Origin: Terebella lapidaria
Taxonomy: Eukaryota; Annelida; Polychaeta; Terebellida; Terebellidae
DNA: 64,000 nucleotides
NCBI GenBank assembly: GCA_949152475.1
Contig: OX424560.1
Coordinates: 19,655,106 to 19,719,105, forward strand
Direction of reading: 5' to 3'
Within the stretch, counting starts at the first letter, position 1; each line of letters opens with the position of its first letter. The position numbers and the translations under genes are program-made. A model generated the notes under the pieces. It had not been told where the DNA came from. It worked only from the letters and a program-made list of their open reading frames with translations, and ran no database searches. Positions 20,201-51,100 of this stretch are shown one piece after another.

Positions 20201-23200
20201 TAACAAATTCTACAACATAACCCATGGATTGAACTTTATAGTATGGATCTAGATGGTGAATTGGGGGTTTCAAAGTCACACATAATTTAAGAGCTTTTTT
20301 TTTGAGAGGAACTTTCATACAACATCACCCATGGATCAAACTTTATAGCATACATCTAGTTGTTGTATTCAAAATCACACATAACTAGACGTCAAGGCCT
20401 AAAGGCCTTGGAGGCATTTCAGGGTGAAGCTATTTATGAAAATGAAAAATGCCGACTCGGTGAAACATTTTCAGGTCAAGTCAAAGTTCATCCCTGATAT
20501 CCCTCAGATATGCTTGTCTAGGACCACGAGTCCGAAAATAATTTCCGGTTTGCTCTACGATGCACAGTTTCCGAGATATCGACGAAAATGAAAAATGCCA
20601 ACTCGGCAAAAAAATTTCAGGTCAAGGTCAAAGTTTATCTCTAGTACCCCTCAGATATGTTTGTCTATTGCCACAAGTCCAAAATTAATGCCTGTTACGC
20701 TCTACGATGTACCGTTTCTGAGATATCGATGAAAACGAAAAATGCCGACTTCGCGAAAAAATTTAAGGCCAAGGTCAAAGTTCATCCCTAGTACCCCTTA
20801 GATATGATTGCCTAGGGCCACTAATCCGAAAATAATGTCCGTTTCGCTCTATGATGCACCGTTTCTGAGATAGCGATGGAAGCAAAAAATGCCGACTCAG
20901 CGAAAAAAATCAAGGTCAAGGTGAAAGGTCATCCATAATACCATTAAGATATGTTTATCTACGGCGACGAGTCCGAAAGTAATGTTCGTTTTGCTCCATG
21001 ACGCACCGTTTCTGAGATATCGACGAAAACCAAAAATGACGACTCAGCGAAAAAATTTAAGGTCAAGGTCAAAGGTCATTTATAATACCCTTAAGACATG
21101 TTTGTCTAGGGCGACGAGTCCGAAAATAACGTCCGTTTCGCTCTACGACGCACCGTTTCCGAGATATAGACGAAAACGAAAAATGCCGACTCAGCGAAAA
21201 AAATTAAGGTCAAGGTCAAAGGTCATCCATAATACTCTATATACATGTTTGTCTCGGGCGACGAGTCCGAAAATAACATCCGTTTCGCTCTATGACGCAC
21301 CAATTCCGAGGTATCGACGAAAACGAAAAATGACGACTCAGCGAAAAAATTTAAGGTCAAGGTCAAAGGTCATCCGTAATACTCTATATACATCTTCGTC
21401 TAGGGCCACGAGTCCGAAAATAACATCCGTTTCGCTCTACGACGCACCGTTTCCGAGATATCGACGAAAACGAAAAATGCCGACTCAAGCGAAAAAATTT
21501 AAGGTCAAGGTCAAAGGTCATCCATAATACCCCTTAGACTTGTTTGTCTAGGACGACGAGTCCGAAAATAACGTCCATTTCGCTCTACGACACACCGTTT
21601 CCGAGATATGCATGAGAGCCTCAAGGATGACTCAGTTAAAATTATTTCGAGCCCTAGGTCAAAGGTCGTTCGACGAATCGGCCTCAAAATCGATAGGCTT
21701 CTTCCCTGGTGATATATGAACCTCCATGCAAAGTTCCACAGTCATTGCCATAATACTTTTTGAGTTATCGTGCGGAAACCAGAAACATTGATTTCATCCT
21801 CACGGACCTCACGGACCCCGGAGCCGGCTCAAAAACAATAGGCTTCTTCCACACAACATTTCTGACCAGCAGTGAAAATTTGGCGAAGATACACCAAGGG
21901 AAACTGAAGTTATCGTGCGGAAACCAAAAAAAAAAAAAAAAACCATAAAGGCATTTCTGCTGAAATGCCTTAATTCTGAGGCAGTATGAGAGCAAAACTT
22001 ATAATCTTTTGTAAACAGGGGACATTTGAGACATACCTTGTAGTTCTAAGATTTCATTTCATACCCTAATGTTTGAGCAAATGTGCAATTCATTTATATC
22101 ATCCTAATCTACATGCTCCCAGCTTTATGCCATTACCAAAAGAAGAAGTACATCCATACCTCTGAAGTCCGAGGGTACATCTGGTGCCATCAGACCAGCA
22201 ATGGCGGACAAGCGCTTGGTCTCGCTGTCACGTTCCTTTTGTGACATGCTGTTAGACACAGCTACGAGGAAAATTTGAATAATAATTATGTTAATACTAT
22301 CATCATAATGCACACAAAGATTTACATGTAGATGATAACAAATAATTTTATCCTGGATAAAAAAAAAAAAAATTTCCTCCTGGATAAATAGCATAAAGGG
22401 TCTAACCTTCCCTGAACTGTGCGTAAAGTTGTGGATCAGAAACAGTCCGTGTTATCAGTCCCCTCATAGCAGCGCCCATTTCACTGAGGCTGTGCAGGAA
22501 TGCAACGAACGACTCGGCATTCTTCATTGCATCCTCTGCCCCTGAAAGTAGCAAGTGTGATAATCTATTTTACTTCATATCAATCCAACACAAGTAGTCT
22601 TGTCTCTTTGTAAGTTTTTGCCTCCGCATGTAAATTTAGCAACAGTCTAAACGGGACATTTAAATGACTTATGTACTAATGTGTAATCTGATTTTTCAAG
22701 GAGGCAATCTTTGCCACATAAACAGCAGCTCTCACGATGTGGCATTAAAATATTTAACGAAATTTCCCCGATTTATAACGTACCTTCCTCTGTCTGTTGT
22801 CGCATGTACAGCAGCAGTCGACAGAGAAGTCTCGGAATCATCACGTCCGCAACTACGAGTAGGTCACTAGGTGTCACCACGGTCTGGCTCTGTGACTGAC
22901 CGTGTCTCGGGCAAAAACTAAAGGTCCATGGAAATTTCATGTTAGAATTTGGAGTTTAGTTAATCTTACAAGTTAAATGTGTCTGAATTTGAATGTTACA
23001 TGATGTTACAAGCTGATGTCATTTTGATAACCTCCATTTGACTAGTGTGTTTAATCTAACATCAACGTGTGATACCACAAAAATAAGAAATTTTCAGGAA
23101 TATATTTTAAACAAAACATATAGATATACAAAGTGCTTATGGAAAGCAAGATCCAAATGAAAAATCTTGGAAATACCGGTAATGTTTCCCTACCCAGCTT

Positions 23201-30446: not shown

Positions 30447-31059
30447 ATGATGTTGAATGCCACAAAAAGAGCCGAACAGGTTGAAGAAACTATTGGGCTG
30501 CTTCAGAAAACATTCGAATGTCCAATATGGTATGTAATGTGTAGATAAATACTCTACACTCTCATAAATACTCTCATAAATACTCTGTTATTATCCATAA
30601 AATGATTTTCCTACACCTAGTGTATGCACAGTTAATATATTTCACGATAAAATGGTACTGAAATTGTGAACCATATGTACCATATAGAATCGCAAATATT
30701 TTCGAAAAATTGCCACTGACTGAAAATCTATATGCAGCTTGGAGTTGATGCTGAATCCAGTCTCGACGAAATGTGATCACAAATTTTGCAGGTACGTTTC
30801 TGTTGTTACCATGGTTACTGAAGTTAATCTAATTTGGAAATTTCACAGACAAATCTCCTGTGACTTCCAATAATTCGCACTCTCTCGATACCTGTATATT
30901 TGAATTAAATTCTGCTTATTATTTTAAAGCATTATGTGTATATCATGTTGATTTTGTTACCCTGGTTACATGTATGTGTTGCAGACACTGTTTATTGGAA
31001 ACGATCCAGAATCGCCCCAGTGCTCGGTGTCCTCTCTGCAAGGAACGTTTCACAAAAAG
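30447..31059 (+). CDS. BRCA1: BRCA1 exons 1-3: RING finger
   Basis: Three small exons encode a complete C3HC4 RING. The ligands are C25, C28, C40, H42, C45, C48, C61 and C64, in the contexts FECPIC, STKCDHKFCRHC and CPLCKERF. The order and spacing match human BRCA1 (ECPIC, TKCDHIFCKFC, CPLC). Exon 4 continues with RSLQELPRWSQIV, matching the RSLQEST region after the human RING that forms the BARD1-binding helix. Confidence 0.96.
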
Positions 31060-34000
31060 GTATCAACAAAATTAATGATCATCTACTAATCATGCTACTC
31101 TGCAATATAAAAAAATGTAAGCCATTAAATTGCTTGTATAATTTCATTGCAGTTTTCAGTAGTTGTGAATGACGTATTCCTTAAGAATACATCTCAAATT
31201 CCCCTGCCCAACATGCTTTCGTAAAGTATGAAATTTTGCTGTGGCAACTAGAAATGGTTCTCATTGTAATACAAATTCCTACTCTTTCCATTTCAGGAGC
31301 CTCCAGGAACTGCCACGTTGGAGCCAGATTGTCAACGCGGTTCGAGACTTGGTCATAGCCTTCGAGAGGGACACAGGAATACAGTGTAAGGGTTTGACGA
31401 TCATGGGTTCAATTCCGAATCATGTTGATTGTCCATTGAAGTTAATATTTTCAATACTCCAATCTACTTTAAAATGTAAAACTTCGCTTTGAACAATTGT
31501 TCACTTCGTTAGGAAAAAACTATATTGAATACAAATTTCAAGAGGCTGAATATGAAAAAATGACTTTGAACTTTCGATATGAAAAAGTCATATTTGATAT
31601 CTTATAATATTTTGATGAATGCTCATGCCCCAAGATTCCCCAAGACACGGACCACCAACTCTGAACGAACCCACTCCAGAAAAGCCAACAGGGAAGGCGA
31701 CTGCTTCAACATCAAGAAAAAACTTGAGACAAACCCGCAAAGCTCAACAGGTATCAAAGTCAGATTAAATATCCAAAACGCTATAATGACAAAACTAGGT
31801 GAGTGTGTTTTCAAGCACGCAGGAAAGATCGAGTTTGAACTGGCGGAAGAATACAGGAGAGCACGAGACCGAAGGTCGAGTGCTTTCTGGTGTTATTCCG
31901 CCAGTTCAAACGAGATCTTTCCCGCGTGCTGGAAAACACACGAAACAGGTTTTGTTTTTATCACATGCTATGAATTTATGATTCTGAAATATTTCAAAAC
32001 CCAACGCATGTAAAGTAAAGTGAAATTGTACCAAAGATTGGGAGAACTTCTTGCAATCTTTGATCTCATGCGTACAAGAGCCGTGAACATGTGCGTTGCT
32101 AGGAAACAGTATAAACAATGCAGATCACCGGGTCGTCAAATACTTTGTATTATGACGTCACAGTGGTTTATGTTTTCGGCATGGTTATATGTTACTAAGG
32201 CTGAATCGCGTGGAGTTTCACTGTCACGTCATAGAACACTCGTGCTTTCATTGTTGTTTCACATGTGAAAAGTGCACAAAAGTGCATGTGAATATGTGAC
32301 ATGTGAAACAAAAATGTGAAGAAAAAAATAGTGCAAACATGATGTTTTCGGCAAAGGTTTTCACACTGTCGGAAATCACTGTGTGTTCCTACTGTTTGTA
32401 GTTTAAGATAAATTCATAGCATGTGATAATATTAAGGTTCACCTGAAAATGGACACTTCCCATGTGTTAATCTCTATACCAAACACTGAAATTGTTTTTA
32501 TATAAAATTGCATCCAGGATAAAGAATTTATATTTGACAATATCGCCCAAATTTCCTGCAGAAACCACCTGATTTAGGAACTGAGCCTTCATTGATTTAT
32601 GAAGATGGTAAGATACCCCAGGTCCATATGCAATTGTAACATATGTTTCAATACATAAAATTTATATCAAATACTTTGCAGCATGTGGTATTAGTACTTT
32701 GTGTACATGTATTTTACATGAAATTGTTAGAATAGATTTTGATCGTTAAAAATTTTTCAGGGGAAGACACTGTCGCCACAACTTCCAAACCAATTCGCTC
32801 CCACATCAATATCAGGTACGTATGAAGTAGTCGTATATAGTCGTGAAATATCAGGTACGTGTAGTCGTATCAGGTATAAATACATGTAGTCGTATCAGGT
32901 ATGAATACATGTAGTCGAATCAGGTATGAATACGTGTAGTCGTATCAGGTATCAATACGTGTAGTCGTATCAGGTATGAATACGTGTAGTCGTATCAGGT
33001 ATGAATACGTGTAGTCGTATCAGGTATGAATACGTGTAGTCGTATCAGGTATGAATACGTGTAGTCGTATCAGGTATGAATACGTGTAGTCGTATCAGGT
33101 ATGAATACGTGTAGTCGTATCAGGTATGAATACGTGTAGTCGTATCAGGTATGAATACGTGTAGTCGTATCAGGTATGAATACGTGTAGTCGTATCAGGT
33201 ATGAATACGTGTAGTCGTATCAGGTATGAATACGTGTAGTCGTATCAGGTATGAATACGTGTAGTCGTATCAGGTATGAATACGTGTAGTCGTATCAGGT
33301 ATGAATACGTGTAGTCGTATCAGGTATGAATACGTGTAGTCGTATCAGGTATGAATACGTGTAGTCGTATCAGGTATGAATACGTGTAGTCGTATCAGGT
33401 ATGAATACGTGTAGTCGTATCAGGTATGAATACGTGTAGTCGTATCAGGTATGAATACGTGTAGTCGTATCAGGTATGAATACGTGTAGTCGTATCAGGT
33501 ATGAATACGTGTAGTCGTATCAGGTATGAATACGTGTAGTCGTATCAGGTATGAATACGTGTAGTCGTATCAGGTATGAATACGTGTAGTCGTATCAGGT
33601 ATGAATACGTGTAGTCGTATCAGGTATGAATACGTGTAGTCGTATCAGGTATGAATACGTGTAGTCGTATCAGGTATGAATACGTGTAGTCGTATCAGGT
33701 ATGAATACGTGTAGTCGTATCAGGTATGAATACGTGTAGTCGTATCAGGTATGAATACGTGTAGTCGTATCAGGTATGAATACGTGTAGTCGTATCAGGT
33801 ATGAATACGTGTAGTCGTATCAGGTATGAATACGTGTAGTCGTATCAGGTATGAATACGTGTAGTCGTATCAGGTATGAATACGTGTAGTCGTATCAGGT
33901 ATGAATACGTGTAGTCGTATCAGGTATGAATACGTGTAGTCGTATCAGGTATGAATACGTGTAGTCGTATCAGGTATGAATACGTGTAGTCGTATCAGGT

Positions 34001-37000
34001 ATGAATACGTGTAGTCGTATCAGGTATGAATACGTGTAGTCGTATCAGGTATGAATACGTGTAGTCGTATCAGGTATGAATACGTGTAGTCGTATCAGGT
34101 ATGAATACGTGTAGTCGTATCAGGTATGAATACGTGTAGTCGTATCAGGTATGAATACGTGTAGTCGTATCAGGTATGAATACGTGTAGTCGTATCAGGT
34201 ATGAATACGTGTAGTCGTATCAGGTATGAATACGTGTAGTCGTATCAGGTATGAATACGTGTAGTCGTATCAGGTATGAATACGTGTAGTCGTATCAGGT
34301 ATGAATACGTGTAGTCGTATCAGGTATGAATACGTGTAGTCGTATCAGGTATGAATACGTGTAGTCGTATCAGGTATGAATACGTGTAGTCGTATCAGGT
34401 ATGAATACGTGTAGTCGTATCAGGTATGAATACGTGTAGTCGTATCAGGTATGAATACGTGTAGTCGTATCAGGTATGAATACGTGTAGTCGTACCAGGT
34501 ATGAATACGTGTAGTCGTACCAGGTATGAATACGTGTAGTCGTACCAGGTATGAATACGTGAAGTCGTACCAGGTATGAATACGTGTAGTCGTACCAGGT
34601 ATGAATACGTGTAGTCGTACCAGGTATGAATACGTGTAGTCGTACCAGGTATGAATACGTGAAGTCGTACCAGGTATGAATACGTGTAGTCGTACCAGGT
34701 ATGAATACGTGAAGTCGTACCAAGTATGAATACATGTAGTCGTACCAGGTATGAATACATGAAGTCGTACCAGGTATGAATACATGTAGTCGTACCAGGT
34801 ATGAATACATGAAGTCGTACCAGGTATGAATACATGTAGTCGTACCAGGTATGAATACATGTAGTCGTACCAGGTATGAATACATGTAGTCGTACCAGGT
34901 ATGAATACATGTAGTCGTACCAGGTATGAATACATGTAGTCGTACCAGGTTTGAATACATGTAGTCGTACCAGGTATGAATACATGTAGTCGTACCAGGT
35001 ATGAATACATGAAGTCGTACCAGGTATGAATACATGTAGTCGTACCAGGTATGAATACATGAAGTCGTACCAGGTATGAATACATGTAGTCGTACCAGGT
35101 ATGAATACATGAAGTCGTACCAGGTATGAATACATGTAGTCGTACCAGGTATGAATACATGTAGTCGTACCAGGTATGAATACATGTAGTCGTATCAGGT
35201 TGGTAGCAGTGGCAGGGTTCTGGTATCAGAACTTATACCAGGAATTTTCAGAATGTAAGGCTCCTTATGTAAATAGTCCATACAGTTTGCTACATACCAA
35301 TTACAGTGTTAATAGAATATATAGAGTAGCAAATTCATTAAAAGCACTGACACATTACCTGAATAGTGCACTAAAATACAAATGATGTTTATTCCTTTTC
35401 AGGTCCGGTTTCCCTGGTGCCAGTAAATCAACAAAAACAAAACCATCATCGGACTTGTGTAAGGAGCCCACAAAAACCAGAAAGGGAGGAAAGAGGGGTG
35501 CACCCATAGAATCATCGCATCCTCAAGAGAGTGAAGATGTCGCAGTTCAGGGCCAAGTGGACCCTGTTAGTAGACAGAGGGGGCTAATGGAGTTCATAGC
35601 GAATGCAACACACTCACAACTCGGGGGTGTCAAAGGTTCAGACAGTGTTGGGGATGGTAAGGAGGCCATTGAACAAGCTGAGGATTTAGTGGTTGAAGAC
35701 GTTCTTCGCGAAAAGCAGTCCACCGAGCATGAAGTTGTTCTTGAACCGGTCAAAACGTACAGCAGGAAACGCAAAGGCAGAGGGAGAAATCCCAAAGTGA
35801 CTGCAGGGAAAAAGAACAAGCAGAAGTTGGCTGAAGAAGTGCTAGATAATGCCGATGATGATTTCGAGGAAAAGGCCGTCAAATGGCAGCAGGGCGACCA
35901 GCAAGGTGCTGAAGATAAGGTCGGACAGTGGCTTGACCAGATGCCCGAGTCAATGAGCACAATCGACTCTAACTTTGTTGAGAGGTCCCCACTGGTCGCC
36001 CTGATCAACAAGCAAAAACTCCAGAACAGCAAGGGTAAAAGTTCGGTGCAAAGCAATGGTATAGAAAACCAGACTGGTGATATGTCTGAAGCAAAGGTTG
36101 CACAAGTTGGCGAGAAAGTTCCTGCCTCGAATGCACAGAGGGTGGATGGAGTGGAGCTGAATAGTCCTGAGACACAGAGCGAATCCGAGAGTTCAAAGCC
36201 TGCTAACGCTCGACGGATATTCAAGTCGAGGGCATCAGAAGCTGCACAAGAACCACAAAGTCCACCAAGAACTGCAGTCCCTTTTCGGCAGTTTGGGACT
36301 CCAAACTCAGATGATCCTTTCGCATTTAAGCTGAGTCAGAGGACTCCAAAACCGAAGAAAGGGCGGAAAGGGAGTGGTCGGAAAAAAGGGGGCGGTCGTG
36401 GTGCAAAGTCGAAGAAAAAACAACTATCCATAGTTGCAGAAGAGATGATTGCTCGAATGGATGAAGTGAAGGAAGATGGTGCAGATGTTGTTCTTGATTC
36501 TGCTACAAAACAACCTGAGGGTACAGAATTTGAAGCATTGGGAATTCCCGAGCAGGAAATTCCATCACTTCATGAGAAAAATGTCTTGAATGGAAAACAA
36601 AATGGCAAAAAATCGACGAAAAACAGTGCTGTACAGGCAAAAAAGGTAGATTATTCTGCCCCTTCCCAGATTCCGCTACCAGAAAAACCTTATGAGTACC
36701 CATTAGAGTTATACTCAGATAGTACCATGTCTGATGCAGGAGAGGTTGAACAAAAACCCAAAGGGACCAGGCGAACCAAGAAGAAAGCAAAGGTTCTATC
36801 TTCAGAAGAAGATGCAGCCCCGAGTGCTGAATTTGAAGAAATCGTTGAGAAGATTTCCCAAGCTGAAGATTTTGAACTGATGATGAGTCAGCAGTTTCGA
36901 GATTTGCAGTCTGAGGCAAAGAAAGAAGTAGAAAAAACTAAATCAAAGACAACAAGACAGAGTCAGAGGGGCAAGAAGAATAACCGGAAGAAAACCAGTG

Positions 37001-40000
37001 AACAGAAGCAAGATGTGGAACCTCCAAAGCGGGCAATGACCAGGAACAAATCCAAGACGCGGATTGCTGAAAAAGAGGCAGACACACAAGAAAAAGCATC
37101 CAAAATGAACGTCAAAAGCAAGAAATTGGACAGTGAAATCATAAAAGCTGCAGCCGAGGGAGACGAAGCGAAAGAACAAGACACCATTGCCTACTCCTGC
37201 GGAGATATCGTTCAACCCACTCCAAATATCGACAAGAATCACACGGAATATGTGCCTCAGGTCAGGCCTGCTTCCGAGGGTGATGCTGGTGACACGTCCG
37301 TTGTCTTGGAAACGGGAGAAGTTGTTGATGTGGAAGTTCTTAGGAAGAGTCAATTGATGTCAGAAGATTCCAAACAAGCTGAAGTAGTCAGTGTTGTGCA
37401 AGATACACTACCCAACACTGCCCAGGATAGTATGCAAAATGACGATACTTCCAAGAGGAACGATCAGAAAAACTCGATTGATGTTTTCCAGAAGCCAAAA
37501 CAATATAAAAGAAAGGTGCAACCCGCTGACGAGAAAGTGTTGGTAACCAACGATGAGAAACCTGCTGCCCCGGAGAAGAAAAAAACACCAGCCAAGGAAT
37601 GGGAAAGCACCAAACGCATGGCTAAAGATTTGGCTCCAACCAAGAAAAAACAGCTCAAGTTCACAGAAAAGAAAAGAATGGATAAAAAGACTGGGAACAA
37701 AGTGGCAAAGACTAACATGAAAAACGTAATAGGTAAGTAAAAACCTTAGCTATATTCACTTATATCTGTGAATATAATAAGATTGGATGAAACTTCTAAA
37801 GTAAAAATTTCAGATGCAAATTATTGCACTTTTCAGTGGACTCAGTGAATATATTGCAGATCGCAAGCACTGTTCAGTGCAACACAACATTCAATGTGTA
37901 TTATAGTGGTGAAATGATGGGTCTATCTCCATAACATCATAACTTGAGCAATGTTGGGTTACAAGTATCAAATTTTCCTCTAAATTGATAAATTCTCACC
38001 TATTCTGCCCCACAGATGTTCCGGACAGTGAGACTCAAGATGACACAGACGACTTGGAGATAATACCATCCCCAACACAGTACGAACCTCCGGACTTAGG
38101 TAAGGGGCACTGTATAATGTATACATGGATATAATGGGTTTTCACCAGGTTCTCTGGTATCCTCCCACACTAATGGCCACCCTTACGCCAAGATCAGAAC
38201 CAATAACAGATGGTAATATAAGCTGATGCTTGTTCATCAATTGTTGTAAAATGAATAAAGTTTAAAGTATAATGAATATTTATTACACAATTTAATTGCA
38301 TTTTCAAATTTCCTAGTTTGCCTGTGATATATTTCTTGTTGAAATTGTGAAGTTTCTTCTTGAAATAATTGGACATGCTGATTTTTTCCCCAGATATACA
38401 GCCGGAAGAAATCAAGATGAGGCTATCACAGGCTTCTGTATCAAGTAAGATTGAAGAATTTGAATCAATGCAATACTACAAATAATGTTCTTAATTTTGC
38501 AGTAATAATTATTTTTATTGCACAAATGTATAATAAAAATTGTAGGAAATTGATTTGTTGAATTATGATTTACATCGAATATTTAACAGGAAAATCTCAG
38601 ACGTCTTTGAATAACTCAACACCAGAAAGCTTGAACGCCATCCCTCCAACTTTGACACAACAGAACAAAAGAATGAAAAAGGTCTCCGACAAAACCGTCA
38701 CTTCCACTTCAAGGTCATCTCGGCGCCAAGGAAGGTCACAAATGACAACATCACAGTTGGAAACCGTACCATATGCTTCGAGTGCAAACAATGACCAACA
38801 GGGTGAAAGTATTCAACTTGTCCCCAATACCTTGGAATCGGCTGGTCTCCAGGCGCAAAATTCAGAGGTGTTAGTAGTGTCGAACACTGAACAGTCACTT
38901 CCAGCTGATACTGCATTAGGAAAAGTTGACGATAATGAAGGAAACACTGTTATGAGCTGTGCAACAAGTCAGAAATCAAGCAGGAATTCACAGAGAAAAT
39001 CATTGAGAAACAGAGGCAAAAGGAAGGGCAAAAATGTCAACCAGAACTGCTCATCTCAGTCCACCGTTGATCCACGAAGTTCCACACAGGATGACCTCAC
39101 GGAAAACGACGGCAACCAGATTCCCAACACGCTAGGGGCCTCGATAGACAAAACGCCAGTCATCAACGTCCCAGTGAGCTCGCAAAGTGAGAAGAAGAAA
39201 AAAGGGACGAAAAGAGTAGAAGTCCAGATCTATCCGAGTCACAGGGAAAATCCCGAGTTTCTCATCGAGGAAACAAAGACATCTCCGGAGCCATGCAAAA
39301 TGAAGGAGACCTTGTTGAGTCCTTCATCTCTCTCCGATGGTACACAGGATAGTGTGTCCTTGTTGAAACCTGCAAGGTTATCGCTATCCGCTCGAAAGAA
39401 GTCACCTCCAACTGCAAAAGAGGTCCACAGTAGTCAACCGAAGATCAAGGAAAGTGTCGCCAATCATGAAGTTCTTGATGACGATGATGATTTGGATGAC
39501 GCAGACACGTCCAGTGACGAAGCCTTGATCAGCACCAAACACCATCAGTTCACCGAAAGTTCTGGCGAAGAAGATGCAGAGGTGATTATGTCTGGTGTAG
39601 CTCATCAAACCAACAAGTGTGATGATGCAGATGATGCAGATGATGACGGTGATGATGATACTTCGAGTGATGAAGCTTTGATCACCAACAAGTATGACAC
39701 GCTTCAAACGCCCGTATCTGAGGTAGAATCCTCGCCTATATGTTCTCCACGGAGGCCCATCAGACACCGATTAGAGAAAACCGACAACGATGAAAATCAA
39801 GCTGAATCCAACCGGGAAGATGGTGATGATGACGATGACTTTCTGCCCAGTTTTCCTCAAGAGACAGGCAATTTAAATCATCTGGATCCATCACCTTTGC
39901 CTTCCAATAATGATGACAATAACGAGATGGAAGTGATGGAAATCAAACCAGTCATCACTAAGAAGCTGAAGTTTCCTAGAAGAGGAGGTTCTTTGGTGGG

Positions 40001-43000
40001 AACAAAGTTAGCATTAGTTGAAACAAAAGGAGTATCGAGTCCATCACAAGAAGGCGAACTCACGAGTCCCAAAAAGGCTGAAAATCATGAAACTGGGGAT
40101 GCTGAAGAACTGGAACCAGCCATCAAAACAGTAGACTTGACCGATGATGAGGACGTGGAGTTCACAAGAAAAAACAAGCAGAAGTCACCGAGAGAATCTG
40201 TTGATTTCCAGGAATCCACAGATGAAGAAGATGAAGACGACTTGATTCCACCGACTCCAGCGAGAAATGTCACCAAGAAAATCAGTCCAAAGTTTGGCAC
40301 AAGTCTCTTGCAAGCTTTGAGAACAACAGACAAACCCAACTCTCTGGATGAGGCAGTTGATGTCGAACGTGAAGGTTGGTCATATATAATTTCACAGTCC
40401 CAGTGTGTAATCCATATTGAAATTTGTGATGCAGTTGTTACTCATTTAGACTTACTACTACACATACATGTATAATCAAATGAATTCTGTGTTTTCCCAG
40501 ATATTAACAAAGGCTCTCCTGACCTCAAACCGTCTACAAGGCCACAAATTCTACTGGATTCAGAAATTTGTGATCCAGAGATATCGGAGGAGCCATATGA
40601 AACTGCAAAAGACCCAGATGATCCAGATATCTCAGATCTAGAGTCTGACCATGTAAGAGATCAGCTAAATGAATATTATAAATATTATATACAGTGAATT
40701 CAAGTTAATAAATAAATCACATTACAAATTCCATGCATTTCAATTGTGCAAATAAAATCATGTCAGATTTGAAAGCTGATTTTATCTTCAGCATGTTTGA
40801 AAGGTGTTGTGCTTTTGCTTTGTGTTGGTTTAAGGAAGATGTTGTGCCTGTGAAAAAGCGTAGAAGTGCCCCGATTCTCGACGACAGCTCCGCAGACGAG
40901 ACTGATGTGAAGCTGATTGAGTCCTCGGATTCTGACAGTTTGTACCAAGATCTTTCTGGCCTTGATTTTATCTCACTGATAATTTAGATAAACAAGCCTA
41001 ATTCAATGCTGATGTACACAAGATTCACTTCAAAAAATGTGGAACTTAATTGTGATGAAAAGATTTTCAGAGGAAGAAAAATGTGAATAATATATTTCTC
41101 GTTTTGAATCTTTTATTACCTAAAATAATGTTTGTATTACTCAGCAAATCACACTGTTTTATTTTGGTGTTTTAGGTGATGTGGACATACGGGCGTTGAA
41201 TGCGACTTCGTCCAGTGCTTTGTCAAGCCAGAGTGAGGCAGTCAACAGCCAGGTACCGCTTTACAGAAACCATTATTGTAACATATCTGCTCTCAAGGCT
41301 AGTGCAACGTTAATGTACAGTTTAAAATTCTGGTACATTTGTATATGCTTTTAGACAGATTGCTCTAATTAGTATGCTAAATAAGATACCGATGATTTTT
41401 ATCCAAAAACATATCAGACAAAACAGAACCTGGAGATGAGCGTTGAGAACATTCGGAGTGAGATCGCTCGTCTAGAGGCCCAGCTTGCTGCACAGGAAGC
41501 CAAGAGTCGATCTGATGGATCGTCTGACCCCGAAGTGGAAATCCGCAAATCACGAGTGAAGCTAAGAAGGCAAGGCAAATCTTCAACGATAAAAGATTTG
41601 TGTTCTGGGAGTTCTGAGCGAATGAGGAGCGGGAGAAAAACTCGGAAAAATGTCAGGAGAGTTGGACGAATTTCCAGCGATGATGATGTTGATGATGATG
41701 ATGACAATGACAATGAAAAAGTTTCCTTGGAGAGAAGTGGCACGCAAAGTAGCACCACCAAAGTTTCTAGAACTAAAAAACAGAAAGCTGTGAGGAGTCA
41801 AAGAAGTAAAGACTTGGATGAGGAGGTTAGTGATAATGACAATGACCTGCACTGCAGTCTTGAATCGCTGCCAAGAGGTCTATCCTTGACCTCAAAGCAT
41901 GATGCATCGGGAGACGAAGATGACGCTAGAGGTCTACTTCCATGTCGATCCAGTCCAATATGTTTACCGGAAACTGGTCCAAATGGTTCAGTTGACCTCG
42001 ATGAGACGGTACATGAAGGTGGACGTGAGAGTGGAAATCTTTCATGTGAGACTCCAGTTAAGAAGCCTTCATCGCAACTGCACAATGACGGACTGATAGA
42101 AAGTCCAAGACCCGCTTCTACACCACGATCTCCATCACCACCCCCTCCTCTGGAATCAGCAGAACTTTTCAGTCCCGATGATGTAAAAATTCCAGATAGC
42201 TTAAAAAGAGTCAGGAATCTGGTGGGAATCACATCATCAAACGGAAAATATACGAAGCGAAAACGGGGCTCCCAGTTGTTCAAGGACGATTCCATGTCAA
42301 ATGCGAGTGGGATGACCAAGTCCGCAAGAATGGATGATTGTCCAGCTGCGATCGAAGTTGTGACAGTTCCAAGTTCAGCTACAGATGAACAATCTGTGGT
42401 CGTTTTGGATGAAGATTCTAGAGATCGACTGCCGAATTCCTCTCTGTGTTCAACGAGTTCTTCAGGGAAAAAACGTAAAAGAACGGACGGCAGAAACACA
42501 GGGAGGTCCAAAGTTTCCCGGAGGGTTTCTCCAGTTAGAAATGCTGAGGCTATGAAAGAAAACGATATTGACGTTGTGCCCTCATCACTGAACGAAGCTG
42601 AAATCTCTTCAAATGCCCAACACTTACCACCATCTAATCCTGGCCTAAGAAACACATCTCAAGATAAAGTAACGAAACCCATAGAAGCGTCATCAGAGTT
42701 CATAATGCACGATACTCCAACCCCATTGTCAACCAATCTGAACAAGAGTAATGTTGAGGACTTGGACTTGGACTGGCCTCAACATCCCGACTGGTGCTTC
42801 GTGGCGTCGGGAATCAGCAAAACACAGCACAAAGTGAGCGGCGATACACATGTTTTAATACACAATTACACATTAACTGGTAGAGCTACAGATTTGTTTG
42901 TATCAGTGGCCTTTTTTGTCTTAGTCATATCTGATTTCAATTACTTGTGAGCAAATTTGTCAAAGTTGAATAGCATTTGAGAAGTTCTTGAATACCATAC

Positions 43001-44798
43001 TACCAATATTTGACCCAGTACATTTAGATGAAAATGAAATAATGAGTGATAATGTACTCACTGATAATTTCTCATTTTGACTAAAAACTTTTTATTCAAG
43101 GTGTGTTTTTTCTGATTTGCATTGCAGCCATACATCGACAAGCTGCTGGGTTTTGTGGCTGGATCATTCAACAAAATCTTCACAGAAAAAACTACTCATA
43201 TTCTCGTGAAACCAGGTAATTTCTAAATAACATCTATTGTGTCAAACAAACTTTATCTAATATTTTGTGATTTGAAATTAAAATGAATATTGTTGGTCAG
43301 TCGTTTTGTATGAATTTTTCTACATTCAAACTATGTAATTCTAACAAAAAAACTTCATTCATAACGGATCCGACCAATGTTTGTTTTGATAATTTTCCAA
43401 TAAATTTCTAATCATATTTTTTGCCATGTCTGTAGCGACCCTGGGCTCACGGCGATGTCAGCGCACTCTCAAATACTTCCAAGCCATTGCACATGGCAAG
43501 TGGCTGCTCAGCGTGGACTGGGCTATCATGTCCGTCAAGAAAAACAAACTTCTGCCTATGGTAAGAAATCTCTACATTTATTCTCGCTCGTGTGCACAAT
43601 TTTGTGGAATGTTTAAGGATACAAACGTCTTTCTTCAAACACATCAAAGCAGTGTTAATGAGCGATAATATGTATAAGGTAGCAACCAGTACCTATGATG
43701 TGTATGAATTTATCCTTCACAAAAACTCACCAGGATCAAGTTATGTGGTCCAATTACGCCCAACAAATCCCTTATAAATTGTTGAATATGTGCATGAAAT
43801 CAAAGCCCCTAACTACACCAACCCCCTCTGGTTGCCAGGCGCAGTATGAGATTGTGGGTGACGTTGTCGAGGACGACGAACATTTCGCCCCTCAGAAGTC
43901 CCGTCTGGCCCCGGGAACACTACTTCTACGATACCAGTTCTGTTGCCTCGGCCTCTTCCAGGACCTTACAAAAGGTAATCCCACCCCAGTAGACCATTAT
44001 GATTGACTAAAACTACTTAAAGCAGGGAATAGTAGCTGGGCGCCTTTTTTCCTTTCACATACATAAATTTTGTGTCATATATATATATATATGGAGAATA
44101 GTTATGTATCATGTATATCGATACATATTACATGTCTAGATATCAAAAAGTTGTGATAATAATTGGACATAATGTCTATTTTATATCAGTATCTATTTTG
44201 ATCAAAGAAGATTCCATATTCATCCTTTTACCCTGTCAGATAACCTGTATGAGCTGATCCGTGCCTGTGGAGGAAGGACTGTGACCCACCCTAGTAACTT
44301 CTCAGACCACCCAGACAGACAGGCCGTCATACTGGTGGAGGCAGAGGAGGCCACTAAAATGCCTTTTATTCACAGTATGTACTTGTCACTGTAATGCACT
44401 TGGAATCACATTTGGGCATAAAATCTGATAGTTTTTCGATGGAAGTGTTCAGTTATAAATACTAGTATGCATCGATTGTTCGGATGTCACTTTGTGGAGA
44501 AAGATAAATCAAAATTTTTCATCTATTAGGTAAGAATATCAAGTGATGGGGTAAATAATTCGATGTTCACTGGGAGATCGTGAATATCTCTCTAAAATTT
44601 GTCACCGTTTAATCATACTCAAGTCGTTAATGAAACACAAATGACTGATTAGATTCTCTTTATGACGTTGTGTTATATGTATTTGCAGAGTTGGAGAAGC
44701 AATACAGGTGTCAAGTGCTGATCAAGGAATGGATTCTGGATACGATAGGAACTTACAGCATCAGAGAACCGGATCATTACTTCGTGGGACCTATCTAA
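30447..44798 (+). CDS. BRCA1: BRCA1 (RING, coiled coil, tandem BRCT); 20 coding exons, about 2369 aa
   Basis: E3 ligase and DNA-repair scaffold; known BRCA1 pairs with BARD1 through the RING and with PALB2 through the coiled coil. Exons: 30447-30529, 30738-30791, 30985-31059, 31297-31385, 31635-31750, 32562-32607, 32761-32815, 35403-37732, 38016-38099, 38394-38444, 38590-40374, 40501-40652, 40835-40937, 41176-41252, 41418-42833, 43128-43215, 43436-43560, 43839-43974, 44240-44374, 44689-44798. Phases agree throughout and the frame ends at TAA 44796-44798. RING is residues 25-64, coiled coil about 1703-1735, BRCT repeats about 2160-2365. The middle is long, charged and low in complexity, with scattered SQ/TQ sites. 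Human BRCA1 is 1863 aa. The exon 5 acceptor has a poor pyrimidine tract, so that boundary is less sure. Two ATGs are adjacent at the start (30447 and 30450). Confidence 0.93.
31803..31942. mobile_element. Foldback (hairpin) element in BRCA1 intron 5
   Basis: A near-perfect long palindrome of about 140 bp. The left arm GTGTGTTTTCAAGCACGC, then GAAAGATC and TTTGAACTGGCGGA, is mirrored by TCCGCCAGTTCAAA, GATCTTTC and GCGTGCTGGAAAACACAC. The apex AGCACGAGACC/GGTCGAGTGCT also pairs. Most likely a MITE or an inverted-duplicated end of one. It starts about 50 bp after the exon 5 donor. Confidence 0.75.
31958..32428. repeat. Pair of inverted 21-bp repeats, possible 470-bp MITE
   Basis: TATCACATGCTATGAATTTAT at about 31960 is inverted as ATAAATTCATAGCATGTGATA ending at about 32428. 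No target duplication or transposase was seen. The element may have inserted next to the foldback element. Confidence 0.5.
32806..35199 (+). repeat. 25-bp tandem array, about 95 copies, derived from the BRCA1 exon 7 splice donor
   Basis: The consensus unit is ATCAGGTATGAATACGTGTA followed by GTCGT. The array begins at the real donor ATATCAG|GTACGTATGA, passes through a few irregular units (32806-32900), becomes highly uniform (about 32900-34490), then shifts to a CCAG-containing variant with ATG/AAG alternation (about 34490-35190). It fills nearly all of intron 7. All three minus-strand frames are open across it, which gives long but meaningless reading frames. Confidence 0.97.
35403..37732 (+). 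CDS. BRCA1: BRCA1 exon 8: large charged exon (776 codons)
   Basis: The single large exon of the N-terminal half corresponds in position to the large central exon of vertebrate BRCA1. It is Lys/Glu-rich and disordered in character, with several clusters like KKKRK and RGKKNNRKK that could be nuclear localisation signals. No folded domain was recognised. It begins just after the 2.4 kb tandem array. Confidence 0.85.
38590..40374 (+). CDS. BRCA1: BRCA1 exon 11: second large exon, with internal acidic duplication
   Basis: 594 codons, Ser/Asp/Glu-rich. The phrase TSSDEALI occurs twice about 50 residues apart (about 39500-39530 and 39660-39690), each time after a run of aspartates. SQ and TQ dipeptides are frequent (SQKSS, SSQST, SSTQDD, DGTQDS, SPSQEG), as in ATM/ATR-target scaffolds. 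No fold was recognised. Confidence 0.85.
41418..42833 (+). CDS. BRCA1: BRCA1 exon 15: PALB2-type coiled coil and linker to BRCT
   Basis: Opens with TKQNLEMSVENIRSEIARLE, a heptad pattern that aligns with the human BRCA1 coiled coil (MQNNLIKLQQEMAELEAVLE) that binds PALB2. A Ser/Asp-rich linker follows. The exon ends with DWCFVASGIS, the first strand of BRCT1. The Ser in VASG corresponds to human S1655, which contacts the phosphoserine of partner peptides. Confidence 0.88.
43128..44798 (+). CDS. BRCA1: BRCA1 exons 16-20: tandem BRCT repeats
   Basis: BRCT1 includes FTEKTTHILVKP and RTLKYFQAIAHGKW. The RTLKYF motif holds the residues equivalent to human R1699 and K1702 that grip phospho-SPxF peptides. 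BRCT2 starts at about LLLRYQFCCLGLF and ends LIKEWILDTIGTYS, matching human VTREWVLDSVALYQ. The protein stops soon after at GPI, a little shorter than the human tail. Confidence 0.94.
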
Positions 44799-46757
44799 TA
44801 TTAAAACAAATTTTGGATCTATTGGACTCGCAAAGAAAAAAAATTGAGAGATGAATTCTATTGGGTGACTGTTGTGTCATGAAATTGGAGATTTGATAAA
44901 ATGACAAAACAATGTGGAGTTCATGTATTATATAAGTTTATTTCGGTAATAATGAAAAAAGCTTTTTTCCCCTCGCACAATTGAGGGCACATGATGAATA
45001 ATATGTAAATAATGAATGAAATCATTCTCAAATTGTGAATCAGTCATCGACCTGGAAATGAAATTAACAAAACTGAATTAAATTGTCCTCTGTAACAGTT
45101 ACAGATACCAAAATGTACAGAAAACAAGTTGCACATTGAAGAAATATATCCATGTATATTGTACAAATCGTATAAATTATGAAATATTGAAAGTCCATAT
45201 GTACTGATTCCAAGTTGGGACTTTGATTTTACGATTCTGATTGTTGTATATATCTATAGCAGGTGTTATGGCTTGAAGATATTGATACAAAATTTTGACA
45301 TTGTAATATTATATGAAAATATTACAGTACGATAAAATAATGCAAACAAAAATGCTGTTTTTGTTCCTACATTCTAGAAATCTACTTGCGTGTCACTAAA
45401 AATACAGGTACAAACTAGCATTGCTTTTCCTATATCGACGACTAGTTTCATTCGAGTACACAACCATTTCTGTACACTATATTTGTTTTACAAATGGCAC
45501 ATCATACGGATTAAGTAGTTCTAGCCAAGACTAAAGTTCTGCGTAAGTTCAATTCTCATGAATTAAGTTGATTTCAGTTGCCTGCAACTGTGGTTATTCT
45601 AAAGGTCACAAAATAGCTTCTGATTTTGGAGTAGGTTAAAAAAAATTTCAAATTTTATATGATTCGTAACAAATACCATATGCATATTGCTGGAATAATA
45701 TTACAACATTGTTTTTTTCACACACGGTGACATTAAAAGTGAAAAATATCAAGAGTCATGCAGTGCTTCAGGAGTATGCTTTTTCACTTCAATAAGTACT
45801 AGATATCAAATTTACAACACATTTCACATGATTCAAGACAATATTCATAATGGCACTTGCTTGTTTACCTATTGGCTATGTATACAATTAAAATACAATA
45901 TTTTTCACATTTCTAAAGTTGAATTGACATATTGTAATTTAGTGCCCCGATGGGTACTACGCATACATGAACAGTAACATTTTCAACTATTCACAAATTG
46001 TCAAATTCTAAACTTTGTACAATTCATAACACGAGTGCACATTATATTATAAATAGTACAGATAGTACGTACACAGGCTGTACAAAATAGCATTACACAA
46101 CTGGGTTGATATTAACATTGGGCATATTCACAAAATATTCTAGCACCTTTTCTTGAATCTTGCACAGTTATCATGACTTGCCAGTGCCAAATCGGACTTG
46201 ATGGCTAGCTGTATTTTCCTCTCAACAAAATTTGGCTAATGTGAACATTTATTTGAACAAATTCTCAATTTATCTGGGCAATTTCACCATAGATAAACCA
46301 GTCACAAAATATTTTCCTGCATACGGATATTAGACAACAAGTTATGAGTTAGTGAGTATTTCCTGTATTTTAATGCCAACATATCACCTCTAAATTTCAA
46401 GTCCACATTTTGAAGTTTCACATTAGGCTGGATTTTTAAAAAAAGTTCCACACAGCAGCGAATCTATCACGAAACAATAACAAGAACAACAACAGAAATG
46501 TATCAAACAAAACAAAACTGAACATGCCGAATCAACGAATTCACGTCACCACCAAAATATTTGACAACACAGAAACATTTTCATAACGATAAACAGAAAT
46601 CTCCAACTTCACACCAGCCATTTCATTGCACAGTCATCTCGGAGTCTGTGTTGTACACAAATAATTTAGTCCCACAACATCCAAAACAAAATGTGCCCGA
46701 GGCATGCCATAGTTTAGTAAAATAAATGCATTTTGTTTTTTACGGAACAGGCTTCCC
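44799..46757. other. Convergent 3' regions of BRCA1 and the MRL gene
   Basis: No coding exon was seen. Possible polyadenylation signals are ATTAAA at 45077-45082 (plus strand, about 280 nt after the BRCA1 stop) and AATAAA on the minus strand at 46253-46248 (about 505 nt after the MRL stop). The rest is AT-rich and unremarkable. Confidence 0.45.
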
Positions 46758-48194
46758 TCAATGTTGCCCACGAGGAACTGCAACAAATGTCTTTTTCTGC
46801 ACAGGCGGCGGTTGCCGAACCTGCCTGCGAGCTTGTTGTAACCCCTCCAAAAGTTCCGCAGGGGGTGGGGGTAACCATTCGTCCATCACAACAGGTGGGT
46901 TGCTAGGGACTTTCGGTTTGACTGGCGGGGGTGTCGGTGGAAACGAGGCAGGTTCCTGTGGCATTTCTCGTGACCAAACATGTTTCTGGTCTAACACTCG
47001 CTGTAAGTCTGAGATAAAGTACTGAGTTTGTGGGCTGTCTCCGTGCACTGAAAGCTTGGTATTCTGCGAGCGTTTTGGCGGAGGTGGTGGCCGCTTTCCC
47101 GCGTCTGTACCCTGTCCCCCGGGACTCGACGACACTCGCCTGTGGGCTGCTATCCCTGGGCGCGGGCCGTGTGTTGGTGTTGCGTAGTGTGGGATCTGTG
47201 GGGGTTTTGGGGGCTGGGCTGTGGGAGATGCAGGGGATTGGAGTGGTACTGGGGCAGGCGAATGTGTGGCACTGAAGGAAGACTGGTGTGGAAGGTGTCC
47301 ATTACCCACTAGATCCACGGGTATTTGAGGTTTTGCGTAGATTGGCGGACGTTTCTGAGGGCTGTTAGGAAGACTGCCACCGATTCGGACGCTGCCGCTC
47401 TCTGGAATGCGAGCTTGACTGACACTTACAACGCTGTACGCTACTTCCTCGGCTTGTGGAGGCGGACTCAATAGTTCCGGAGGTGGCGGTGGCAAGTCAT
47501 CAATGTCCATGGATGCCGACACGTTAGACGGTTTGGCACTGGTCGGCGCGGGAGGTAGAACGTTTGGATCCATGTTGGGTATGCTTCGCTTTTTACCTGC
47601 TCCCTGCGAGGGGCGACGCTTGAGTGTCCCAGATGCTGCGTTGTGGTCGGTGAGTGACTTCGTTGTCATAGTTGTGACTGGAAGGATCGGGGTCTTTTTC
47701 CCGGGAGTCCTGAGGTCTTCATCGCTCCCTACGCCGTCCAGACCCTTGGGAAGATCCCCGCTGTGCGTCGACGTGCGACGGTTCTCGACGTCTAAAAGTG
47801 GGACACTACTTCGCCTACAGGTTCCGTTAGGGCCACTGACATGGTTACCCACGGTGACATCGCTTAGCTTCCTCACGGGAGTCCCAGGTGCAGTTGCTGA
47901 TTGTCCTATGGTTCCCGCTAGCTGCTTCACTCGTGGTTCGTGACTGCCAGTGCTAGAAGCAATACTGCGTGAGTCGCCCTCTTCGTTCTCCGATATGTCG
48001 CCCATCGCCTGCGCCGTGACCTGACAAATGGATCGTCGCGGGCGAAGCTGATGCTCTTTGGCAAACTCCTGGTTCCTCTCATTCTGTTTGGCCAGGTACT
48101 CCGCAAAGTTCTGGTTGGGAAGAATCTCCTTGCTACCCCATGAGTCTAAGCTGCTCCTCACTTGACGGTAGTTCTTCAACAGCTGTTCTCCGTA
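46758..48194 (-). CDS. MRL exon 12: proline-rich C-terminal tail
   Basis: A 478-aa last exon. It starts [12 protein letters not shown], continuing the RA-PH unit. It is rich in Ser/Pro and includes [35 protein letters not shown] and [16 protein letters not shown]. The last closely matches the end of human lamellipodin (PPAPPKRDQNTKLS). Such stretches bind Ena/VASP EVH1 domains, SH3 domains and profilin in relatives. Confidence 0.92.
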   Translation of the reverse strand, partial: YGEQLLKNYRQVRSSLDSWGSKEILPNQNFAEYLAKQNERNQEFAKEHQLRPRRSICQVTAQAMGDISENEEGDSRSIASSTGSHEPRVKQLAGTIGQSATAPGTPVRKLSDVTVGNHVSGPNGTCRRSSVPLLDVENRRTSTHSGDLPKGLDGVGSDEDLRTPGKKTPILPVTTMTTKSLTDHNAASGTLKRRPSQGAGKKRSIPNMDPNVLPPAPTSAKPSNVSASMDIDDLPPPPPELLSPPPQAEEVAYSVVSVSQARIPESGSVRIGGSLPNSPQKRPPIYAKPQIPVDLVGNGHLPHQSSFSATHSPAPVPLQSPASPTAQPPKPPQIPHYATPTHGPRPGIAAHRRVSSSPGGQGTDAGKRPPPPPKRSQNTKLSVHGDSPQTQYFISDLQRVLDQKHVWSREMPQEPASFPPTPPPVKPKVPSNPPVVMDEWLPPPPAELLEGLQQARRQVRQPPPVQKKTFVAVPRGQH

Positions 48195-51100
48195 CTGCAA
48201 TTCAAAATAAAATTCAAGTTTAACAGTAGAATCACGATATATTTCTGTCAAAATTTCTGTCAATAATTCACACATGCATGTCTGGTTTTCTATACAATAT
48301 TGGCTAATTATTTAATACACAGTAAATTAGACTTGAAAAATCAATCGCGAATACTGGATAATTTTGCATCTTCCAGTATTCATTTTAGTTCAGTGTTCAT
48401 TTACCTTAGCGATTCTGATGCCAGTAACCCACTGGGAGAAAGTCTTCTGGTCATCAGCACAGAGGTACTTGATGTACTTGGGAGACTTGGTCTGAATCTG
48501 AGGGTGCTGGGAAAACAAAACATCATTGTCATCATTTGTAATAATGTAACATCATGAGCCTTGATTATAGATTATACTCGAAACCCAAAATACATACACA
48601 CTCCAAATTCTGTTGCTCAGTACAATCACTTCTTTTATTCCAAATACAGTTCTAGTTTCATGAAACTGTTGCTTACTTTGAGAGCGAAGCCATACTCAGT
48701 GGGTGCTTTGTATTTTTTCTTCCAGGATACGGCCGTGTATACCTCCACTACATCCAACTTCTGTAGGCATACCAGGTCCTTCGACGTCTGTGAAAACAAA
48801 ATCAAATTCCATTTTCATCACCATATTCACGATAGTTCCATTGAACCTGGTACAACTGATTTATGCTAACTTGCTGTTTGAATTGACAACTTTTTCATCA
48901 TGTTCAAGCGATTAGACGTTGCTTGATTTTGTGGAATACTAACTATAGAAGATCAGCTATTTAGGAGACCCCACTGTAAACTTTTTCGTGGAGAAAACAA
49001 ACGAATACAAACCTTGCCCTTGCCCTTGGGTGAGTAGTATACTCCAGAAGCTCGGAGTACGAAGTAATGTTTCTTCCACGCTTTTTTGCCCTCGGCCTTG
49101 AGGAAGAGCTGGCCATCAATCTCTGGGAACCTCTGGTTGTCTCCCGAGAAATACTCCTGTTCCGGGATAAAATTATGCATTTGAAGCCATGCATTAATTG
49201 GTCAATTTGTTAGTTTTGACATCTACATATTTTATGAAAGAATAGAGGAAAATATGTATTTTTCAAAGAAGAGAAAGTCATTAAATTTTACCTCGATAAG
49301 TGCCGTTCTAGCTGTGTCAGTGAATTCTTCATTTTTGTCAGGGCGTAGATAGACCTGAAATATCAAAGGAATACGTGTATATACGATGGTTTATATATAT
49401 ACGATCTCATTGTATCTTCCAAACTTTCTTTGATGAATATGCGAAGAATTCAACACAGAGGAATAAGTTAAAATCTACCAGGAATGTTTAGCTACCTCTG
49501 GGCGTAGGAATATGTCGTATTTGCCGGGACTTTGTACGAACAGCAGTCGGTTTTTCGAGTCTCTGGTCCACATCAGTAAAGGCTCCACCAGCAACTCATG
49601 GTCTTCCAACAGGCGCTCTGAAAATGTTTTTTTTTTTATTAAAATATATCAGCAATCAAGGTTGGCTTGAACACAGATATTCAATTACTGATTATATCAC
49701 TCAACATCACTGCATTTCAATGATACTTTTGTGTTTTTGGGAGAACACCGGATCCACTGAATTGATGAATAAATTCCTAAATTTTGATCAATACAGCTAG
49801 GAAAACATATTTTGATATTAATTCTAAGTATGACCATACATACCCATGTAGAGGTCGGGAAGATTTTCGACGACCGCCCAGTTGACAGAGGGGGTGGTGT
49901 TGTTCTTGATGACGAGTCTCTCACAGACCTGTATTCCCGTCATCTTGTCGTCAACGAGAATGCTCTTGCTACAGCCGTCATCTGAGTAAAACCGCACGAA
50001 CAACTGCAAGGCGGGGAAAATTGTCACTTGAGAAAATTATGGATATTTGTCAATAATGCACATTCAACATTCAATAAAATTGGCAAAAGTTCACATTTGA
50101 TTACATGGAAAAAGTTAATTTTCAGGGACTGAAATTGATCGATGTTCAAGAAGTCAAATTTTTTTAAAATCCAATTTTCACCACATTTGGTAACATGTAA
50201 GCCTGTATAGAAATTCATATAGCCTGTATAGGTTACATTATGATTAGCAGTGCAAACTTTAGGTCATAATGCGACCAGTTTTTCTCCACAATTCTACAGA
50301 GCGAATGCTTCCATGCAAGAAGTTTTTGCCTGACCTGAAATGAACTCGCAAGTGGACTAGTTTACATTGTGTAGGGGTACAGAGTAAAAGGTATAGTACC
50401 ATGGAGTACACTCACTAAACCATGGCTCTTGTCCAACAGCGTAAAAAAATTAGTCATTACGCATAGCCGGCTGATGACCACTCCTGTGTGATACTTTGGA
50501 ATGATAAATTTGGAAAGAGCAATTAGCCACGTGGCTGAAAGATGTTTGTTTTTATATTCATATGTCAAATATTCAAATCCTGGTATAGTATTTCACGGAA
50601 AAACATATTCATACGGTAGAGTTTATATGTTTTCCAGCATGCGTCAGCTAAAAAGTATACACACATGATTATATGTACAACTATTTGAAGATAATAAAAG
50701 TTTATTTATTTAATTTTCATCATTAGATATTCATAGCCTATTGATCCCACTATCATCGAATCAGTTCAATCTATCTGGCGGTACAGTTTTACAAATCCAT
50801 GAATCGCTTAGAAATTTTGATAATGTGATTACTCCTGTAACAAAATTAATCATCTCGATATTATCACATTATTTATTTCCATTTGATTGATAGAGCATTT
50901 CAAAAGATAACAGTGCTTCATGGTGATGTTTTCAAACACTATCTGTTTATTGGAACCCCACAACATGCTCAATCAAAAGGCAAACTTTTTTCGCTAATCT
51001 TCATTCCAATGGGGAAACCTTAGTACAATTAATCAAAGCTTGACATTCAATTCAAGCTGATATTTTGATATGTGCAAAAGTTTTGCATCTTTTATTTGAA

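Follow-up and report, generated by a model that had tools for sequence, protein, structure and literature searches.

Intron 7 of a BRCA1 gene, located in a 64,000-nucleotide stretch of the Terebella lapidaria genome (GCA_949152475.1, contig OX424560.1, positions 19,655,106 to 19,719,105, forward strand; hereafter the window), is occupied for the most part by a 25-bp tandem repeat, the units of which resemble the exon 7/intron 7 junction and nearly all carry a CAG/GT splice donor. We consider it likely that this array is a mirage-type minisatellite that was recently homogenised, is passive, and leaves the transcript with intron 7 through the use of an exon-proximal donor. Mirages are, according to passages of the original reports, minisatellite-like repeats of amphioxus that span exon-intron boundaries, contain AG/GT splice signals and are unstable in length (PMC3087553, PMC3902484).

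The array is single and compact. Tandem Repeats Finder places it at 32856-35200 (93.8 copies, 98% matches), and a unit-by-unit layout yields 93 clean 25-bp units at 32868-35192, 61 of which are identical to the consensus TATCAGGTATGAATACGTGTAGTCG. CAGGT sites number 95 including the true donor, with the last one reaching 35196, and the segment 32843-35200 amounts to 91% of the 2587-base intron 7. The preliminary description of this DNA had reported about 95 tandem donor-bearing copies directly after the exon 7 donor, with TATCAG/GTATGAATAC in every unit. The number stands, as 93 clean units plus diverged copies. The position stands for the diverged copies, which reach 32815/32816, but not for the clean units, which begin 40 bases 3' of the exon 7 donor with only diverged copies in between. 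The uniformity was overstated: TATCAG/GTATGAATAC is present in 62 of the 93 units, and units 65-92 form a TACCAG subfamily. The 16-mer TATCAGGTATGAATAC is likewise carried by 62 of the 93 and CAGGTATGA by 89. The parts of the array are as follows:

32808-32867, plus strand: diverged first copies, namely the junction copy and a partial copy, with AATATCAGGTACGT at 32808 and 32847
32868-32967, plus strand: units 0-3, slightly diverged
32968-34492, plus strand: units 4-64, 61 identical 25-bp units
34493-35192, plus strand: units 65-92, TACCAG subfamily, in eight of which GAAG replaces GTAG
35193-35200, plus strand: incomplete final copy TATCAGGT

Exon 7 ends with ATATCAG and intron 7 begins with GTACGT. 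A 14-base identity, AATATCAGGTACGT, is found at two places in the window that lie 39 bases apart, one being the junction (32808) and the other the first diverged copy (32847). Aligned locally with gaps, the unit and the junction score 25, a value reached by none of 17562 background windows and none of 22 CAGGTA-centred windows (maximum 18); taken alone, the test has a narrow margin, as the background windows reach 24. Without gaps, the unit matches the junction at six bases of the exon and three of the intron. Given the shared AATATCAGGTACGT and an alignment score above both backgrounds, the founding repeat copy was very likely the exon 7/intron 7 junction itself, which has diverged since, and the earlier suggestion that the array grew out of this junction is likely to be right. 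Three features of mirages are found here: the junction copy TATCAG/GTACGT spans the exon-intron boundary and contributes exon bases to the unit, the CAGGT sites supply AG/GT splice signals, and a homogenised core of identical units is bordered by diverged 5' units and a distinct 3' subfamily. The identical core with diverged edge units resembles the pattern of the amphioxus mirages, for which the passages seen of PMC3087553 report that cluster boundaries are excluded from homogenisation.

The identity of the host gene, previously recognised from the letters alone, is supported by searches of PDB: the best hit of the RING part is human BRCA1 (1jm7_A, E 3.2e-29), and the best PDB matches of the BRCT part, the exon pieces of which were joined by hand for the search, are human BRCA1 BRCT (E 5.8e-29). 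An in-frame join of coding exons 1-7 with the large exon 8 is possible, and with normal splicing the frame stays open from exon 6 through exon 7 into exon 8. Exons 1-5 were joined by reading, in the course of which exons 3 and 4 each had their end shifted by one base. The resulting map is:

30447-30529, plus strand: BRCA1 coding exon 1 (coding part only, start set at ATG)
30738-30791, plus strand: coding exon 2, RING finger, from the PDB match of the RING part
30985-31059, plus strand: coding exon 3, RING finger, end adjusted by one base
31297-31391, plus strand: coding exon 4, end adjusted by one base, with a predicted donor AAGG/GTTTGA
31635-31750, plus strand: coding exon 5, with a predicted acceptor
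32562-32607, plus strand: coding exon 6
32761-32815, plus strand: coding exon 7, its final six bases TATCAG matching the repeat unit exactly
32816-32821, plus strand: authentic 5' splice site GTACGT of exon 7 (U1 pairing -9.8 kcal/mol)
32822-32824, plus strand: TGA stop reached by exon 7 extensions
35403-37740, plus strand: exon 8, the large central exon, its end taken from the open frame and its donor approximate
42700-44800, plus strand, approximate span: BRCT-coding exons, from the PDB match to human BRCA1 BRCT

Use of a downstream donor would truncate the protein. All eight translated extensions of exon 7 (the first five and last three of 94 downstream donors) continue with Tyr-Val and stop at the TGA at 32822-32824, which precedes the first array donor. 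The product would have about 177 residues by hand count, with the RING and without the BRCT domain, in agreement with the earlier prediction that such use would truncate BRCA1 after the RING region.

We measured donor strength as pairing energy with U1, unlike a trained splice-site model; the U1 5' end, taken from one genomic copy, has the usual form ATACTTACCTG. At -9.8 kcal/mol, the first partial copy pairs as strongly as the true donor; the last partial copy pairs at -9.6, and of the 95 sites downstream of the true donor 89 have a value of -7.2. The range for five other BRCA1 donors is -5.7 to -8.0 kcal/mol (exon 1 lies one base off register, and exon 4 was left out). The comparison of units with the true donor proposed in the preliminary description thus gives, in terms of U1 pairing, -7.2 against -9.8 kcal/mol for most units. 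The units are not uniformly weak, as -7.2 falls within the range of the other BRCA1 donors; by this model most array donors appear plausible yet weaker than the authentic one. Eight types of change from the unit consensus were counted. Four fall within the donor, whose 9 bases make up nine of the 25 positions; from only eight change types there is no sign that the donor 9-mer is better conserved within the units than the remainder. Recursive splicing was considered from the AG/GT motif, and no polypyrimidine tract was seen before the unit AG by reading.

Masking of the donors by RNA folding was considered and rejected. In a six-unit model the units do pair unit on unit, and the mean unpaired value is 0.16-0.19 for four of the six unit donors, 0.38 and 0.62 for the other two, and 0.34 for the true donor. 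The fold is nevertheless unexceptional, because arrays of shuffled units were equally stable in 16% of 200 trials.

The same architecture recurs elsewhere in the genome. Two donor-motif scans gave at least 11 other loci among the matches listed, three neighbouring clusters at C3:25.67-25.69 Mb being counted as one locus, of which the first cluster alone was examined. All 11 were inspected at the upstream edge, and nine adjoin an apparent open coding exon that ends in a donor. The exons at these anchored loci are:

C1:1143785, exon ending in a donor
PSI exon, plexin-type
EGF_CA exon
mitochondrial-carrier-like exon
WD40 exon
MORC-like ATPase exon
coiled-coil exon resembling TPR, a weak case in which only five exon bases match
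F5/8 C-like exon
Phe-tRNA synthetase exon

Five of the nine have a Pfam match above the cut-off (PSI, HATPase_c_3, WD40, EGF_CA and Phe-tRNA synthetase core), two have one below it (Mito_carr and F5/8 C), and two have none; three of the exons resemble those of MORC, plexin and TPR genes. In seven of the nine the array starts inside the exon, by 5 to 31 bases, and at the F5/8 C-like and Phe-tRNA synthetase loci it begins 47 and 337 bases downstream and is preceded by exon-like copies. The two loci counted as unanchored are C1:52518454 (39 bp), where the exon end was not found at the upstream edge, and C1:42397769 (about four copies), where no exon was seen there. That the same arrangement is present at unrelated genes argues for a general mutational process.

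Two of these loci have peculiarities of their own. At C1:1143785 (region L009, 1143-2662) a 33-bp junction array of 46 copies is open in the exon frame throughout and encodes repeated 11-residue units such as CTVALTQNCQV, so that donor choice could set the number of protein repeats, or the array could be a coding repeat. The TPR-like exon has a further minisatellite upstream of it, with a 48-bp unit and about 24 copies, which takes up the first 1136 bases of region L069 in reverse complement.

Whether donor sites are duplication hot spots is a different question, and our data do not show it. On contig C1, where the array listing for the donor motif CAGGTANG extends to 99.95 of 100.8 Mb, the matches listed include at least seven arrays of this motif and at least ten of the reversed motif, the plexin donor array being among the latter and hence shared; donor arrays are no more numerous than those of the control. 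Five of the seven listed C1 arrays are located at apparent exon donors (P 0.013, 0.096 and 0.23 at assumed base rates of 0.25, 0.4 and 0.5), as are nine of the 11 loci (P 0.0001, 0.006 and 0.033 at the same assumed rates). The excess is clear over a base rate of 0.25 and weak over 0.5, and as enrichment depends on this assumption, we do not claim junction hot spots. Within the window, four CAGGTANG sites lie outside the array, and the one examined is a known donor. The acceptor-side pattern TTTNCAGG had 167 hits and its control 316, with dispersed repeat families contributing many. Control-motif arrays at C2:853012-855083, C1:71661726 and C1:77802216 have units that also contain a donor-like AGGT.

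The course of events that we infer for the mutational mechanism, for normal splicing, and for leakage and decay would be the following. A short segment across the border of exon 7 and intron 7, consisting of the last exon bases and the donor, would have been duplicated in tandem; slippage or unequal exchange would then have multiplied the copies and made them uniform. The resulting array probably has little or no selective effect: the donor next to the exon, which shares the strongest U1 pairing with the first partial copy, would be used, and the array would be removed with the intron. If nearby copies were used now and then, the transcripts would reach a stop two residues beyond exon 7 and would be expected to be degraded.

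Several observations weigh against this interpretation. Exact identity between exon and unit extends over six bases, three of which are the usual CAG. The two array-end copies (-9.8 and -9.6 kcal/mol) rival the true donor in U1 pairing, and in the F5/8 C and Phe-tRNA synthetase arrays the unit donor, at -10.6, exceeds the authentic donors at -5.7 and -6.4; with two of nine anchored arrays behaving in this way, a stronger exon-proximal donor is no general rule. Total hits for the donor motif exceed those for the reversed motif (1224 against 718 and 236 against 181), which could hint at a preference, these totals being dominated by large arrays. Finally, the analysis is based on one haplotype (one match to a 701-base probe), from which origin and splicing are inferred.

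The array could instead supply regulated alternative donors, the exon-near copies being used according to splicing-factor levels and tuning BRCA1 through premature stops, in the manner of human IFI6 (G1P3). Turri et al. 1995 are said to have dealt with the minisatellite of this gene (IFI6/G1P3, 6-16). According to an introductory passage of another paper, its minisatellite units act as donors and two downstream units are used (PMC4526556). In both genes minisatellite units supply donor sites, whereas alternative units are used in IFI6 and the units in BRCA1 are candidate donors, known from their letters. A regulatory role is possible on the basis of donor-like sequence and a convenient stop: the eight translated downstream donors all lead to the same stop, in U1 pairing the units fall within the range of the five other donors of BRCA1, with the first partial copy equal to the true donor. 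We nevertheless hold it to be unlikely, given that the donor 9-mer lacks extra conservation, that the architecture is repeated in unrelated genes, and that in amphioxus regular splicing is reported to be unaffected by mirages, as suggested in passages of PMC3087553 by Adh3 data and globin RT-PCR (reverse transcription polymerase chain reaction). Less probable again is a further step, in which exon-intron junctions, those of BRCA1, the plexin-like, MORC-like, Phe-tRNA synthetase, WD40 and EGF genes and others among them, repeatedly seed large donor arrays in the worm lineage and array length is a heritable, fast-mutating dial of the share of premature-stop transcripts, including BRCA1 dose; each additional unit would be one further competing donor, and copy number would set that share.

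A U1 sink or splice buffer, which was proposed in the preliminary description and by which the array would titrate U1 locally or shield the intron from premature polyadenylation, draws on the 94 CAGGT sites that lie downstream of the true donor within 2.4 kb. We regard it as very improbable, and its evolved form finds no favour in our data: the donor motif is no better kept than the other positions, and arrays of this motif on C1 are no commoner than those of the control. In the six-unit RNA model, moreover, the true donor is more open than four of the six unit donors and less open than the other two, and at least 22 genomic U1 matches make titration by a single intron unlikely. Nineteen of these U1 snRNA (small nuclear RNA) matches stand in one tandem cluster at C1:63436151-63452200, spaced mostly by 821 bases. 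An assembly artefact or a misplaced satellite is just as improbable: an exact count of 61 identical units is difficult to obtain, yet the exact 16-mer TATCAGGTATGAATAC is present 62 times in the array and once elsewhere, the diverged edges and two subfamilies look biological, and the 3' flank is unique, the 701-base probe from this side of the array hitting a single locus in the genome.

The amphioxus mirages mentioned in the sources seen are hosted by Adh3, globins and troponin C, with similar repeats in PGBD5. The BRCA1 array differs from them in phylum, in host gene and in its about 95 copies; amphioxus mirages are reported at 3' boundaries also, whereas our survey followed the donor side. 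Among the literature matches listed, we found none that reports mirages under this name from a host other than lancelets. In human duplicated genes, variable tandem repeats at the exon-intron boundary have been proposed to form new introns (PMC2812944); these lie in segmental duplications and average about four copies of 30 bp, compared to about 95 of 25 bp here, and the passages seen do not describe donor arrays as such. Intron 1 of an earthworm metallothionein, likewise an annelid gene, contains a large minisatellite (PMC12783039) with monomers of about 180 bp on average; the passages seen do not state that it spans a splice junction.

A lancelet host was ruled out by mitochondrial gene order, which is of annelid type, and we treat lancelets as the known range of mirages and not as part of their definition. 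The order is nad3, tRNA-Ser, nad2, cox1, tRNA-Asn, cox2, tRNA-Asp, atp8, tRNA-Tyr, tRNA-Gly, cox3, with cox1 identified by Pfam and the other protein genes by eye. The adjacency of nad3 and nad2 fits the annelid order in the parts seen of PMC2639372 and PMC4866719, and the run cox1-N-cox2-D-atp8-Y-(E)-G-cox3 resembles that tabulated there for Sipunculus. The GFP family was not found in the genome, but this control had no match anywhere, and the result is not used as proof against a lancelet. A second, weaker COX1 match with an open frame of 703 residues lies on a separate contig (C417:44633-46450) and is possibly a contaminant or a foreign mitochondrion.

Other features of the window lie apart from the array. 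Two long-ORF (open reading frame) blocks on the minus strand, at 5194-10299 and 11373-17045, appear retrotransposon-like by eye, with reverse transcriptase and a recombinase-like part. A 147-bp tandem repeat of eight copies with the core AAGGTCAAGGTCAAAGGTCA is present at 20438-21609. Open frames on the minus strand at 46758-48311 and 60271-61167 are likely exons of a proline-rich gene adjoining BRCA1, which by eye has a likeness to lamellipodin-type adaptors.

The array in BRCA1, a probably passive minisatellite of the mirage type that has many copies and belongs to a new host lineage, would extend the junction-spanning minisatellites of the lancelet type to an apparent annelid. The location of five of the seven arrays listed on C1 at apparent exon donors suggests that such arrays are frequent in the worm genome. 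Natural arrays that place up to about 95 donors in tandem at a real exon provide a ready test of how the spliceosome chooses one 5' splice site among many, and they likewise test the idea that such duplications create new introns. For the choice of donor the BRCA1 array brings its own readout, as a wrong one meets a stop at once.

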